This document shows, piece by piece, positions 29,378-36,430 of a stretch of DNA of 64,000 bases. Each line of letters begins with the position of its first letter. Position 1 is the stretch's first letter. The stretch comes from Butyribacter intestini (GTDB taxonomy: Bacteria > Bacillota > Clostridia > Lachnospirales > Lachnospiraceae). Below the pieces are notes generated by a model. The model did not search any database and was not told the origin of the DNA. It saw nothing but the letters and a program-made list of their open reading frames with translations. The stretch spans positions 562,303 to 626,302 of the forward strand of contig LLKB01000005.1 of NCBI GenBank assembly GCA_001414325.1, in the 5' to 3' direction. The position numbers and the translations under genes are program-made.

Positions 29378-31015
29378 TTACTGAAGAAGTGAAAGTACAC
29401 CCTGGTTAGACTGATTAGCCTGTGCAAGCATAGACTGACCTGCCTGTAAAAGAATGTTATTCTTGCTGTATGCAACCATTTCTTCAGCCATATCTGTATC
29501 ACGGATACGAGACTCTGATGTCTGAGTATTCTCAGCAGCTGTATCAAGATTTGCTATTGTATGCTCAAGACGGTTCTGAACAGCACCGAGTTTACTTCTC
29601 TGTGCAGATACTTTCTTGATAGCTGCATCAATAGTTGTAGTAGCCTTCTGAGCACTTGACTGAGTAGCAAGGTCAACTTTACCGCCATCAACTCCAAGAG
29701 ATGCTGCACTCATATCATCAATACCAAAGTTCATTGTCTGACCTTCGTTTGCACCAATCTGAAGTGTCATGCCACCATTAGCTGCTGTCTTAGTAGCAGA
29801 TGCATCAAGACCAAGTTTCTTAGCAGTTTCGCCTGTTCCAAAATCTGAAAATGAAACAGAACCACTTTCGCTATTTACCACAAGACGACCATCTTTAGAA
29901 ACATCAACAGTTACATTATTTAACTTATCAGCTTCATCTCTACCAGTATTATATTTGGTGATTGCATTATTGATTGATGTCTGTAATCCAGTTGCAACAG
30001 CTGACATATCACTTCCATTAGCCACTGCTGCTGGTGTTACTACCAATGACTGTCCATTGATATTCATATAAAACAGCTCTGTAGCAGCTACATCTTCACC
30101 ACTATACTTTGTTGTACCTGTAGTAGCGGCAACATCTCCTAAAGTCTTGCCTATTACGGTGTCTGTATTACTACCACCGTCAATATCAATTTTAGAATCA
30201 GTTCCTTCTGAACCTGATTTGATATTAAAGCTTGCTACACCACCTGTTACAGATGATTTTACAGTAACATGTGATACTCCAAGTCCGCTATTGTCAATAG
30301 CCTCATTGATCTTATCCTGCATGATTGTAGCAGCTTTGCTTGCTTTTGAACTATCTGACCCTCCTGTCCAGTCCTGTTTTAATGCAGCTTTTTCTTCATT
30401 TGTAAGAGTAGTCCAGTCTACAGTAATTTCTGCACCATCAATCTTTATAGTTTCTTTTGCAAAGAAAGTACCATCTACTGCATCAGATGTTCTTTTACCT
30501 GCTGTCATGCCTGTTTCTGCTGCTTTTAAGTTTGATATCTGACTTCCTATTGTCTGGTTGGAGCCCTTTGATACACCCTGTGGTCCAGCCAAAGAACCAT
30601 CAAGAAGCTTCATTGTATTAAACTCTGTTGTGCTTGAGATTCTTGTAAGCTCGTCCTGAAGCTGGCTGATTTCCTTCTGTACTGCCTCACGGTCATCATC
30701 TGTCTCTGTACCGTTTGATGCCTGTACTGAAAGTTCTCTCATTCTCTGAAGAATTGAGTGTGATTCATTTAATGCACCTTCTGCTGTCTGTATAAGTGAG
30801 ATACCATCCTGTGCATTGTCAGATGCTTTGTTTAAGCCACGAATCTGGCTTCTCATCTTCTCGGAAATAGAAAGTCCTGCCGCATCATCTGCTGCACGGT
30901 TAATCTTATAACCTGAAGAAAGTTTTTCTGTTGATTTTGCAAGTGAACTATTTGTTATTCCTAACATTCTGTTAGCGTTCATTGCTGACATATTGTGCTG
31001 TACTATCATTGCCAT
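29378..31015 (-). CDS. fliC: Flagellin
   Basis: 545-aa filament subunit. The longer frame from 31048 adds 11 residues, but GGAGG lies eight bases before the ATG at 31015 and the protein then begins [19 protein letters not shown], the standard flagellin start. D0/D1 domains are conserved at both ends ([23 protein letters not shown]; end [17 protein letters not shown]). The middle (~145-400) is a variable Thr/Ser/Gly-rich surface domain. It is exported by the flagellar type III system and lacks a signal peptide. csrA lies 289 bases upstream, and the leader has a hairpin fitting CsrA control. A recombinase switch lies further upstream. Confidence 0.96.
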
Positions 31016-31023
31016 AATAATTA

Positions 31024-31065
31024 CCTCCGTGTTTTTCCTACGCTCCAAATCCGTTTGTGAGCGTA
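31024..31065 (-). promoter_or_regulatory. Predicted CsrA-binding leader of fliC
   Basis: On the minus strand a 7-bp hairpin (TACGCTC with GAGCGTA, 31039-31065) has a 13-base loop holding a GGA; another GGA lies at the foot of the stem, one follows, and the last is in the GGAGG ribosome site (31024-31028). Loop GGA plus Shine-Dalgarno GGA is the known arrangement of CsrA sites in the Bacillus hag leader. Confidence 0.65.
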
Positions 31066-31303: not shown

Positions 31304-31537
31304 TTATTTTTTGCGATATTTTTCAGGATGCTCTTTTTCTTCATAGTAAGAAGGAAAAGAGCACTCTATTCCGTTTTCTTTCATATGTTTTTTAAGAGCT
31401 TTGCTTCTGACTATATTCACATCCTTCGGTGCATCTATCATTATCCTGTGATGATTTCCTGAACCACCGAGAAAAATAATCTTTACATTATCTCCAACCA
31501 TGAGATACTCTTTGTTTTCAACTGAAAGCCTTAACAT
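31304..31537 (-). CDS. csrA: Carbon storage regulator CsrA
   Basis: 77-aa RNA-binding translational regulator. It has MLRLSVENKEYLMVGDNVKI and IDAPKDVNIVRSKAL, with Leu4 and Arg44 of the RNA-binding face conserved; position 6, often Arg, is Val. The usual length is 60-75. In flagellated Firmicutes CsrA represses flagellin translation and is titrated by FliW; no fliW lies in this window. The gene is directly upstream of fliC on the same strand. GGAGG precedes the ATG. An extended -10 (TGGTATAAA, plus-strand 31627-31635) about 90 bases upstream is a possible promoter. Confidence 0.9.
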   Translation of the reverse strand: MLRLSVENKEYLMVGDNVKIIFLGGSGNHHRIMIDAPKDVNIVRSKALKKHMKENGIECSFPSYYEEKEHPEKYRKK

Positions 31538-31840: not shown

Positions 31841-31866
31841 TGTAACAGAATGGATAATGTGTTACA
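31841..31866 (+). repeat. Predicted recombination site, left copy
   Basis: Arms TGTAACAG and GTGTTACA (7 of 8 symmetric) around the 10-bp spacer AATGGATAAT. The spacer is the exact reverse complement of that in the right copy, so the two sites are in inverted orientation. Two arms around a short asymmetric core is the normal layout of tyrosine-recombinase sites. Confidence 0.75.
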
Positions 31867-32225
31867 TTTTTTTACTTTTATGAAAACTTTATTTGAAAAT
31901 ATTTTTTATGAAATATGTGATTTTAGTTAGAACACATGATAAAAGCTGAAATTATTATTATAAAATAATGTGACTAAGAATCTATTAGAAGAATTTTGAT
32001 GATGTATTAAATCTGAATACAAGATTTTTACATTACAAACAGACACAAAACTTTTATGCACAATTACGGTTTACACCTGCAATACGGCAATAATGTTATT
32101 TGTGCCCGTATGAAATTTTTTGTTTTCTTTGCTGATAGTTTTATTAAGTATGCATTTGAGCATCTCTAAACATAACCTATAACCCAACTGCCACATTGAT
32201 ACAAATTTTAAGCCTCTTTGTTGCA

Positions 32226-32825
32226 CTATAGATTTACAAGACAAAAGACTTCGTCCCTGTCATCCTGGTCTATCCCCAGATACCTTGTTGTTATTTTATA
32301 TGACGAATGATTATAGATACTGGTAAGCAATGCCGGTGACACTCCTTTTTTCCAGGCATGATACCCAAATGTTTTTCTGAGCGAATGGCAGCTCACCTTT
32401 TGGCTGAGCAGACATTTTTTTGCTGCGGATGATATTATGCGAAATGCCTGAATCCTGCTGATAGGCTTATTTTCTGATTTCTGACCCAGAAAAATAAATT
32501 GTTCCATCACCTCACATAAATTTTCTTTCTTTTCAAAAATTTCTTTTAAATATGATGCCAATGCTTCTTTTAAATTATCATTTATAAAAATAATTGTTTT
32601 TTTTCCTGTTTTTTTCTCTTTTACATCAATATGAGATTTGAAAGACAGCAGACTTTCATTATATACATCTTTCCAGCGAAGTTTTAAAATATCAGAAATA
32701 CGCAAAGCGGTATTAAGTCCGCATACAATAAGAAGATAATTTCTTTTATTTGGCTTAATATCGCAATAATATTTCTTAATCTTATCTAATTCCACAATAT
32801 CACGAATAGGCTGAGTAAGTTCCAT
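32226..32825 (-). CDS. Small tyrosine recombinase, FimB/FimE-like DNA invertase
   Basis: 199 aa, the size of fimbrial phase-switch recombinases: it is essentially a catalytic domain. The catalytic residues are visible: Arg42 (TALRISD), His147 and Arg150 (CHSLRKT), His173 (NHSSYK) and the nucleophile Tyr182 (TRYLGI). The ATG at 32825 is chosen because AAGGATGG precedes it; a TTG at 32846 in frame lacks a ribosome site. The gene lies inside a pair of inverted sites (31841-31866, 32944-32969), which are its likely substrate. Its promoter is also inside. The recombinase call is firm; the inverting function is inferred from site geometry. Confidence 0.88.
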   Translation of the reverse strand: MELTQPIRDIVELDKIKKYYCDIKPNKRNYLLIVCGLNTALRISDILKLRWKDVYNESLLSFKSHIDVKEKKTGKKTIIFINDNLKEALASYLKEIFEKKENLCEVMEQFIFLGQKSENKPISRIQAFRIISSAAKKCLLSQKVSCHSLRKTFGYHAWKKGVSPALLTSIYNHSSYKITTRYLGIDQDDRDEVFCLVNL

Positions 32826-32852
32826 TTCAATAATCCATCCTTTCAATTATTT

Positions 32853-32881
32853 TTTATAGCTGAGTTATTAACAATTTTCAA
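32853..32881 (-). promoter_or_regulatory. Promoter of the recombinase gene
   Basis: On the minus strand TTGAAA (32876-32881) and TATAAA (32853-32858) are exactly 17 bases apart, about 30 bases before the ATG. It lies within the predicted invertible segment and would move with it. Confidence 0.65.
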
Positions 32882-32943
32882 AAATTTCAAAAAAAAGCTA
32901 AAGTATCCAATCTGACTGCCGATAAATGTTATGTAAACAAAAA

Positions 32944-32969
32944 TGTAACACATTATCCATTGTGTTACA
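32944..32969 (-). repeat. Predicted recombination site, right copy
   Basis: Perfect arms TGTAACAC / GTGTTACA around spacer ATTATCCATT, the reverse complement of the left spacer. Together with the flanking A/T the two sites agree at 29 of 30 positions in inverted orientation. Confidence 0.75.
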
Positions 32970-33044
32970 TTTTTTATTTTCAATATTCATACACAGCTCT
33001 CTACTTTTTAAATTATAGCACACTTACAGATAATCCCAGTAACA

Positions 33045-33095
33045 AAAAAAGCCACATTGCAAATATAAAAATTATATTTACAATGTGGCTTTTTT
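33045..33095. terminator. Bidirectional terminator after aspS
   Basis: Stem aaaaaagccacattg (33045-33059) with its complement (33081-33095), extended inward by AT pairs, with A/U runs on both sides. It terminates aspS in the minus direction and shields the recombinase switch from it. Confidence 0.85.
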
Positions 33096-33218: not shown

Positions 33219-34970
33219 TTACTGTCTTACTTTTATATGCACTTCTCTAAGCTGCTGCTCGCTTACTTCGTTTGGTGCACCACACATAAGATCCTGTGCA
33301 TTTCCGTTCATCGGGAATGGTATTATCTCACGGATGTTTTCCTCGTTGCGAAGAAGCATTATCATACGGTCTACTCCCGGTGCCATTCCTGCGTGTGGTG
33401 GTGCTCCAAACTGGAATGCATTGTAGAGTGCTCCGAATTTTTCCTTTAAGTCTTCCTCTGTATAGCCTGCGATTTCAAATGCCTTAACCATTATGTCGAG
33501 GTCATGGTTGCGGACTGCTCCTGATGAAAGCTCGATACCGTTACATACAATGTCATACTGGTATGCAAGGATTTCTGACGGCTCTTTTGTGTTTAATGCT
33601 TCAAGTCCGCCCTGTGGCATTGAGAATGGATTGTGAGTAAAGATATATTTCTTCTCCTCATTGTCATACTCATACATTGGGAAGTCGTTTATATAGCAAA
33701 ATCTGTAGCTGTTCTTCTCGATAAGGTCAAGTCTGTTTCCAAGCTCTGTACGAATCTGTCCTGCATAAAGAGCTGCCTGTGCTTCTCTGTCTGCGATAAA
33801 GAAGATTGTATCTCCCGGTGTAAGTCCTGCTATATCAGCAATTTCCTGTTTCATGTCATCAGGAATAAATTTGTCGATAGGTCCCTTATATGACTTATCT
33901 TCAAGAACTTCAAGATAACCAAGTCCGCCCATTCCGATAGACTGTGCAAATTTGAGAAGTTTCTCATGCTGTCCCTTTGAAAGTTTTGCATGGACATTTA
34001 TCGCACGGACTGTCTTTCCATGGAACGGCTTAAATGTGCATCTCTGGAAGAAATCTGTAACATCGACAATGCGGAGCGGATTTCTAAGGTCAGGCTTGTC
34101 TGAACCAAACTCAAGCATTGCCTGTTTGTAGCTGATGATAGGATACGGTGCCTGTGTAACTTCATATCCCTCAGGTGCAAATTTCTCGAATGCTGCCGTG
34201 AGGACTTCCTCACCAACCTTAAATACATCTTCCTGTGTTGCAAAACTCATCTCAAAATCGAGCTGGTAGAACTCTCCCGGTGAACGGTCTGCTCTCGCAT
34301 CCTCATCTCTGAAACAAGGTGCTATCTGGAAATACTTGTCAAAACCTGACACCATAAGAAGCTGCTTGTACTGCTGTGGTGCCTGTGGCAATGCATAAAA
34401 TTTACCTTTGAATTTGCGTGATGGCACGATATAATCTCTTGCACCCTCAGGTGATGAAGCACAAAGGATAGGTGTCTGAATTTCTAAAAATCCCATGTCT
34501 GTCATCTTCTGACGAAGAAAACTTATAACATTTGATCTAAAAATCATATTGTCACGAACCTTTGCATTTCTAAGGTCAAGATAACGGTATTTAAGACGAA
34601 CATCCTCTCTTGTCTCTTTTGATGTCATAATCTCAAAAGGAAGCTGTCTGTAAACTCTGCCAAGAACTTCTACCTTGTGTGCTTCAAGCTCGATAGTTCC
34701 TGTAGGTATCTTTGGATTGTATGTCTCCTCATCTCTGTGCTCTACGACACCCTCAACTGAGATACAGTCCTCTTTGCTTATACCATCGAGAAGTTTTGTG
34801 TCACGCATAACAACCTGCATAACACCGTACATATCCCTAAGGTCAACAAATGATACACCGCCGTGGTCACGGATATTTTCTACCCATCCGGCAAGTCTTA
34901 ATGTTTCACCGACATTGCTCTCGCCAATGTCGTTTAATGTTTTGTCACGATAAATGTTTCCTACGTTCAT
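33219..34970 (-). CDS. aspS: Aspartate--tRNA ligase
   Basis: 583-aa class II synthetase of the bacterial type with the GAD insertion. N-terminal OB-fold anticodon domain (LRLAGWVENIRDHGGVSFVDLRD), catalytic motif 2 (FRDEDARADRSPGEFYQLDFEMSF) and motif 3 (GMAPGVDRMIMLL). ATG at 34970 with GGAGG. A T-box leader lies upstream, separated by a palindromic element. Its specifier codon reads AAC, so expression may answer to uncharged tRNA-Asn. This would fit a non-discriminating enzyme that makes Asp-tRNA-Asn for GatCAB. Discrimination cannot be judged from the protein by eye. Confidence 0.96.
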   Translation of the reverse strand: MNVGNIYRDKTLNDIGESNVGETLRLAGWVENIRDHGGVSFVDLRDMYGVMQVVMRDTKLLDGISKEDCISVEGVVEHRDEETYNPKIPTGTIELEAHKVEVLGRVYRQLPFEIMTSKETREDVRLKYRYLDLRNAKVRDNMIFRSNVISFLRQKMTDMGFLEIQTPILCASSPEGARDYIVPSRKFKGKFYALPQAPQQYKQLLMVSGFDKYFQIAPCFRDEDARADRSPGEFYQLDFEMSFATQEDVFKVGEEVLTAAFEKFAPEGYEVTQAPYPIISYKQAMLEFGSDKPDLRNPLRIVDVTDFFQRCTFKPFHGKTVRAINVHAKLSKGQHEKLLKFAQSIGMGGLGYLEVLEDKSYKGPIDKFIPDDMKQEIADIAGLTPGDTIFFIADREAQAALYAGQIRTELGNRLDLIEKNSYRFCYINDFPMYEYDNEEKKYIFTHNPFSMPQGGLEALNTKEPSEILAYQYDIVCNGIELSSGAVRNHDLDIMVKAFEIAGYTEEDLKEKFGALYNAFQFGAPPHAGMAPGVDRMIMLLRNEENIREIIPFPMNGNAQDLMCGAPNEVSEQQLREVHIKVRQ

Positions 34971-35823: not shown

Positions 35824-36408
35824 TTATATCCCAAACTGTCCCCTGACCTCATCAAAAGTTTTTACAGACTCCATATTTTCATGTGGCTCACACAACATCT
35901 TATCCATAGTTACCGTATCAAACCACCTGCCAAATTTGTAACCACTGTATGTGAGTCTGCCCGAAAGTTTATATCCCATATTTTCATGAAAATGCACACT
36001 TCTGTAAACATCGTTGTCCGCTTCTGTCATAGGCGGTGTGATAAGTGCGATTGCTTTTACAAACCCCTGTGCCTTTAAGATTTCCTCAAGATATGAATAC
36101 AGTTTTCTGCCAACACCGTTTCCCCTAAAATTATTGTCAAGATATATAGTCGTCTCCGCATCCCAGCTATATGCAGCTCTCGGATGGTACTTGCCTGCAT
36201 AAGCATATCCGATGATTTCTCCATCTGACTCAGCAACAATATAGGGATGTGTTTCAAGCGTGTGCGAAATTCTTTGTTTAAATTCATCAAGCAACGGCAC
36301 TTCATACTCATAAGTGATTGCTGTTTCTTTTACATAATAACTGTATATCTCAAGTAATCTTGCAGCATCTTCTATCTTAACCGCTCTTATATTTATCTGT
36401 GAGTTCAT
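35824..36408 (-). CDS. GNAT N-acetyltransferase, phosphinothricin-acetyltransferase-like
   Basis: 194-aa acetyl-CoA-dependent acetyltransferase. It begins NIRAVKIEDAARLLEIYSYYVKETAITYEYEVP, has the acetyl-CoA loop NNFRGNGVGRKLYSYLEEIL and ends with GRWFDTVTMDKML, as in the Pat/YwnH group acting on small amine substrates. The substrate is unknown. The ATG at 36408 is preferred to 36423, because GGAGAAAAG gives normal spacing. It follows the DUF1703 gene closely and may share its transcript. Confidence 0.85.
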   Translation of the reverse strand: MNSQINIRAVKIEDAARLLEIYSYYVKETAITYEYEVPLLDEFKQRISHTLETHPYIVAESDGEIIGYAYAGKYHPRAAYSWDAETTIYLDNNFRGNGVGRKLYSYLEEILKAQGFVKAIALITPPMTEADNDVYRSVHFHENMGYKLSGRLTYSGYKFGRWFDTVTMDKMLCEPHENMESVKTFDEVRGQFGI

Positions 36409-36430
36409 TTTTCTTTTCTCCATATGCCCA

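Follow-up and report, generated by a model that had tools for sequence, protein, structure and literature searches.

The window (the whole stretch of Butyribacter intestini DNA analysed here, 64 kb long) holds a small tyrosine recombinase gene between two inverted sites, and the question that it raises is what an inversion at this place would control. The original prediction was a self-inverting cassette whose effect comes from the recombinase transcript, either by read-through into csrA-fliC or as antisense RNA toward aspS. We conclude that the cassette is probably a self-contained invertible promoter for the csrA-fliC operon, nearly always caught in the OFF orientation. At the level of sequence, this conclusion is founded on the paired sites, the position and polarity of a sigma28 promoter motif, the csrA-fliC partner, the OFF junction and one site-bounded inversion between species.

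In the proposed mechanism, the enclosed recombinase would act on the pair of inverted sites so that the 1.1-kb block is turned over. At one of its ends, the block would carry an outward promoter for sigma28, the flagellar sigma factor. In the ON orientation, this promoter would transcribe csrA2-fliC. In the OFF orientation, represented by the window, it would point away, and its transcript would meet a terminator-like distal site and flanks.

Recombinase and recombination sites

The cassette and its neighbours are laid out as follows.

29378..31015, − strand: fliC, flagellin, left of csrA2
31304..31537, − strand: csrA2, second, divergent CsrA-family gene (PF02599)
31841..31866, + strand: left (csrA-proximal) site, TGTAACAG-AATGGATAAT-GTGTTACA
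32226..32825, − strand: 199-aa tyrosine recombinase, counted from ATG (PF00589, E 7.9e-22)
32944..32969, + strand: right (csrA-distal) site, TGTAACAC-ATTATCCATT-GTGTTACA
33219-34970, − strand: aspS, right of the cassette, named from its sequence

The cassette is thus bordered by csrA and fliC on the left and by aspS on the right, all on the − strand. The recombinase matches PF00589 with 78.3 bits (cut-off 27.1), which is its only Pfam match at E 0.001. Residues R42, H147, R150, H173 and Y182, which we take to be the catalytic residues (R, H-x-x-R, H/W, Y), are invariant in 16 aligned relatives. The genome contains 15 PF00589 matches; the protein among them nearest to the cassette recombinase, C5:1318250, is 40% identical to it.

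Both sites are 26 bp long, with 8-bp arms that differ between left and right at one base. Given arms of this length, each 10-bp spacer is the exact reverse complement of the other, as originally predicted, and the inverted repeat around the sites extends over 40 nt with 93% complementarity. The arm pattern with up to 2 mismatches was found three times in the window, compared to 0.47 expected (at least 3 matches in 0 of 100 shuffles), and both sites match it with 0 mismatches. When all 12 contigs of the genome (3.6 Mb) were searched with at most 1 mismatch in the arms, the pattern was found at these two sites only, while a control pattern gave 1 match per strand. We therefore regard the two inverted, mirrored-arm sites as real and as unique genome-wide at this threshold; with the gene that they enclose, they support a cassette that would invert together with its own recombinase.

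Survey of related loci

Related recombinases were sought in 99 relatives, in 397 genomes of the family, and in relatives of two other centres (195 and 194 genomes, in overlapping sets); named genome contigs added 31 loci. Recombinase matches shorter than about 450 bases and exact duplicates were dropped. The resulting 130 distinct recombinases are the loci that were fetched, a portion of all matches in the 397-, 195- and 194-genome sets. Of these, 75 adjoin a divergent csrA, and 72 of the 75 csrA-linked rows fall within a single 78-row clade of the tree (support 98/88).

Similar site pairs flank many of the related recombinases. Spacers could be compared in 52 of the 75 csrA-linked loci; several of the loci for which the finder called no pair have sites visible by eye. 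The mean spacer identity within loci is 0.948, compared to 0.62 after permutation (maximum of 1000, 0.74); the within-locus value is inflated because the pairs were picked partly by match and the permutations omitted that step. Agreement is perfect in 31 of the 52 loci, among which there are 42 distinct spacers. Thus, the spacers vary between loci, yet match inside each locus.

A sigma28 promoter motif directed away from csrA-fliC

One element overlooked in the original prediction lies just inside the right site, with 18 bases in between.

32899..32925, + strand: sigma28-like promoter, TAAA-N16-CCGATAA, directed away from csrA-fliC

The motif fits the consensus given for Butyrivibrio sigma28 promoters, TAAA-N16-17-MCGATAa (PMC3720852). 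Since it reads toward aspS, the window represents the OFF orientation, even though the recombinase reads toward csrA. Flanking sequences were inspected for 18 cassettes, of which 16 are csrA-linked and one was seen with a single flank. The csrA-linked ones carry the motif just inside one site, and no sigma28 motif was seen in the other two (L053 and L049).

Across the 75 csrA-linked loci, with related loci counted as independent, an outward motif is present on the csrA-distal side in 67, compared to 5.4 expected from dinucleotide shuffles; for one further locus, that side is missing from the sequence. Inward motifs on the same side occur in 3 of the 75 (5.6 expected) and motifs facing csrA in 1 (L239; 1.4 expected), and only one of 69 loci has a motif between csrA and fliC. 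Among the recombinases not scored as csrA-linked, the outward motif occurs in 3 of 55. Two of these (L138 and L082) are on contigs cut near the cassette, and the start of a csrA is discernible by eye at the contig end of L138. More ON copies were sought in 15 genomes of one additional genus and 1 genome of a second; of the 7 new recombinase loci read, 5, all in another genus, are csrA-linked, and each of these is OFF.

The cassettes occur in two types. In type I (69 of the 75 csrA-linked loci), the motif is located at the recombinase gene's 3′ end, in the direction of the gene, whereas in type II it is located at the 5′ end, in the opposite direction. Type II comprises the window, L046, L144, L146, L152 and L150 (the last by position), as well as L279, L280 and L365, and in the tree it forms a clade of 7 (98/91) that includes L047, which is not csrA-linked. 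As the motif faces away from csrA in both types, it is the polarity of the promoter, and not that of the recombinase, that is kept.

This constancy bears on the original proposal that inversion acts through read-through from the recombinase into csrA-fliC, or antisense toward aspS. The proposal is favoured by the interval between recombinase and csrA in the window, in which no terminator-like site was found on the − strand. However, the recombinase of OFF type I copies reads away from csrA, its direction varies while the sigma28 motif keeps pointing outward at the csrA-distal end, and the distal neighbour differs among loci, aspS being close to the cassette in few. We consider this reading very improbable, and recombinase read-through as the main effect was rejected, since it is not the direction of the recombinase that is conserved.

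Even less probable is a stray recombinase of plasmid or phage type that acts on a resolution site of its own and has no part in flagellin regulation. Relatives below 60% identity were indeed found, in 1923 of the 72,556 plasmid records and in 160 of the 50,697 phage records, but the sites here are paired and inverted, linkage to csrA2-fliC recurs, mostly within the clade described above, and the promoter motif accompanies that linkage; this last association led us to reject the candidate. Only 2 of 82 loci from viral contigs or phage records have a csrA (L364 and L365, both human faecal fragments labelled as phage; flanks were inspected in six of the 82). L365 also has the OFF layout, and L364 is truncated by the end of its record.

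The OFF junction

An invertible promoter of the kind proposed would leave an OFF transcript running outward across the right site. Two elements are found there.

32939..32978, + strand: OFF junction, the site palindrome followed by T-rich DNA, terminator-like
33045..33095, strand not assigned: strong, terminator-like inverted repeat flanked on either side by T/A runs, located between the cassette and the end of aspS

The OFF junction was compared with a modelled ON junction in 49 of the 75 loci. The mean stem score is 6.4 for OFF and 1.7 for ON, the mean T-tail 11.1 and 3.7 of 18, and the mean folding energy −21.3 and −14.6 kcal/mol, with OFF more stable in 44 of the 49 loci; the corresponding p values (3e-8 to 1e-9) are not to be taken literally, since the loci are related. 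The OFF junction thus resembles a terminator, which the modelled ON junction in most cases does not. The window itself is a weak case for an OFF terminator. Its two junctions fold alike (−16.1 for OFF, −16.0 for modelled ON), the stem scores 7 for ON but 5 for OFF, and only the T-tail differs in the expected sense (13 for OFF, 6 for ON, of 18).

Orientation among relatives

The original prediction called for strains to be compared for both orientations. Of the 75 loci, 67 are OFF, one is ON (L239), and 7 could not be called (L089, L133, L145, L150, L151, L242 and L252), so that 74 are either not inverted or not callable; the single inverted copy comes from a comparison made between species. 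The site-to-site block of L239 (781 bases) aligns inverted to those of L230, L237, L240 and L244, while csrA-fliC aligns forward. The distal neighbourhood of L239 does not align with those of its relatives, and the inversion is therefore anchored on one outer side only. As the count of csrA-facing motifs is no higher than in shuffles, the ON case is carried solely by this inverted alignment. By eye, the csrA-side outer arm of L239 is degraded, and partly so in close relatives; L239 may thus be fixed ON. At another locus, L275, which lacks a recombinase, a sigma28 motif lies immediately ahead of a csrA2-fliC pair, an arrangement that looks as if it were fixed ON.

An active switch should be caught ON more often than once in 75, and these counts speak for a former switch, mostly locked OFF, in which inversion has become rare or been lost in the species and csrA2-fliC is silent or otherwise driven. 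Consistent with such decay, a site or the distal end is gone from some of the 75 loci, a site is lost or the recombinase broken in L133, L242 and L150, and one arm base differs between the two window sites. In opposition, the recombinase is intact with conserved catalytic residues, the site pairs are near-identical with spacers matched within loci, and both csrA and fliC are conserved. We judge a locked switch unlikely, and favour an invertible promoter with which cells would still switch.

Contig breaks near the cassette were counted in 74 loci, a set that includes L138, which is not one of the 75. Breaks number 7 on the distal side (1.5 expected) and 2 on the csrA side (1.5 expected), a weak sign of mixed orientations. 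In L053, which is not csrA-linked, a 137-nt outer flank is repeated in inverted form at the start of the contig and ends at the site (1-137 versus 915-1051); this could reflect either a sample of mixed orientations or a genuine duplication.

csrA2, fliC and the other flagellins

The csrA2 product matches PF02599 with 60.3 bits (cut-off 27), and falls below the NCBIfam CsrA equivalog cut-offs (39.8 of 73 and 30.5 of 70.1 bits); it is thus a divergent paralogue. Its arginine R43 (R44 counting the start) is common to all nine aligned sequences. The other csrA of the genome adjoins a gene read as fliW. Matches to csrA2 (E ≤ 1e-12) were found in 11 of 116 genomes, 10 of which have the recombinase; in the 11th (G024), the contig begins at the ribosome site of the recombinase, and a recombination site is present by eye. 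In L239, L230 and L237, csrA and the flagellin start are each matched twice in tandem downstream of the cassette, and one promoter may serve two csrA-fliC units.

The fliC leader contains a candidate target for CsrA.

31040..31064, − strand: predicted fliC-leader hairpin whose loop contains GGA, a candidate site for CsrA

Another GGA, near 31023-31028, coincides in part with the ribosome site. Such a GGA-loop hairpin is present in the fliC leader of 67 of 69 loci, compared to 20.5 expected from shuffles, and GGAGG at the fliC ribosome site in 68 of 69. A sigma70-like match (31213-31184, 10/12) between csrA and fliC suggests that fliC may have another promoter, although matches of this type are at chance level in the window (18, compared to 18.4 expected).

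The genome encodes three flagellins and a flgL-like match, told apart by eye. Flagellin C6:132012 is preceded by a sigma28 motif of its own, and its leader contains a GGA-loop hairpin; no sigma28 motif was seen by eye in roughly 440 bases upstream of flagellin C5:713047. Predicted CsrA sites are thus present in the leaders of both fliC and C6:132012, which qualifies the latter as a possible CsrA2 target. Tentatively, and with the balance somewhat against it, the cassette could be a two-phase flagellar antigen switch of the Salmonella type that evolved independently in gut Lachnospiraceae. The ON orientation would then yield the second flagellin and CsrA2, and CsrA2 would keep the housekeeping flagellin from being translated, exchanging one antigen for the other. 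As the leader of the switched fliC has the same kind of candidate site, CsrA2 may instead only balance its own flagellin.

The tie between a CsrA-family gene and flagellin, and the GGA-loop leader hairpin, recall the FliW-CsrA control of the B. subtilis type. Unlike in that system, the csrA here is a divergent additional copy, for which control by an invertible promoter is proposed.

Comparison with known systems

Judged by sequence alone, the cassette would follow a Hin-like plan, with inverted sites enclosing an invertase gene and a flagellin-operon promoter. The hin gene itself lies inside the Salmonella invertible segment, and the fljB promoter uses sigma28. The Salmonella H segment, flanked by the inverted sites hixL and hixR, likewise encloses the promoter of a flagellin operon, fljBA, with OFF and ON set by promoter direction (PMC3535392). 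The Salmonella operon combines flagellin with a regulator of flagellin expression, FljA (PMC3535392). Here, the flagellin is combined with CsrA2, a CsrA paralogue whose gene is the first of the operon. Hin is a serine recombinase (PMC3798978), in contrast to the tyrosine recombinase found here (PF00589), and the cassette does not belong to the Hin family. The original description of the arrangement as undescribed therefore needs to be divided: an invertase inside invertible DNA beside flagellin is the plan of Salmonella hin, while for the combination of a tyrosine recombinase with CsrA, no account was found among the titles, term counts and abstract starts of open-licence PubMed Central papers. 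If true, the problem that hin solves in Salmonella would have been solved a second time here, by unrelated enzymes.

The RecV gene of C. difficile is located away from its flagellar switch, and fimB and fimE, which encode small tyrosine recombinases of about 200 aa for promoter inversion, are outside their invertible switch. The cassette recombinase resembles FimB and FimE in size, and its similarity to the NCBIfam FimB/FimE-type models is weak (47.4 of 222 and 39 of 221 bits, far under the cut-offs). The RecV switch, also from a member of the Clostridia, is alike in that a tyrosine recombinase and inverted repeats control flagella (PMC7446863). However, it is a 154-bp element upstream of flgB that acts after transcription initiation via Rho (PMC7446863), compared to the 1.1-kb segment here, which has the recombinase and the promoter motif inside and lies beside csrA-fliC.

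Crohn's disease and chronic fatigue syndrome have both been the subject of work on antibodies to gut-bacterial flagellins (PMC11285207, PMC11580831). If a widespread and mostly OFF switch acts on some of these flagellin genes, possession of a flagellin gene would not equate to production of the antigen. Such a switch might also explain the commensal flagellin genes for which no promoter was found (PMC3720852).

Several related loci depart from the layout of the window. In L089, with csrA-fliC as neighbour, a sigma28 motif is seen by eye between two sites located ahead of the recombinase gene, possibly a small promoter inverter with the recombinase outside. In L091 and L092, which have no csrA nearby, a pair of inverted sites spaced by about 150 bp lies upstream of the recombinase; these are likely small inverters. 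In L047 (1132-4137), a recombinase of the window clade adjoins fliS-, fliD- and flaG-like genes; csrA and the sigma28 motif were not found there. By eye, related recombinases with inverted repeats in L049 and L153 are beside sugar-nucleotide or glycosyl-transfer-like genes. Elsewhere in the window, 35824-36423 encodes a GNAT acetyltransferase whose best NCBIfam match is the ArsN1 arsinothricin resistance family (149 of 210 bits, below the cut-off).
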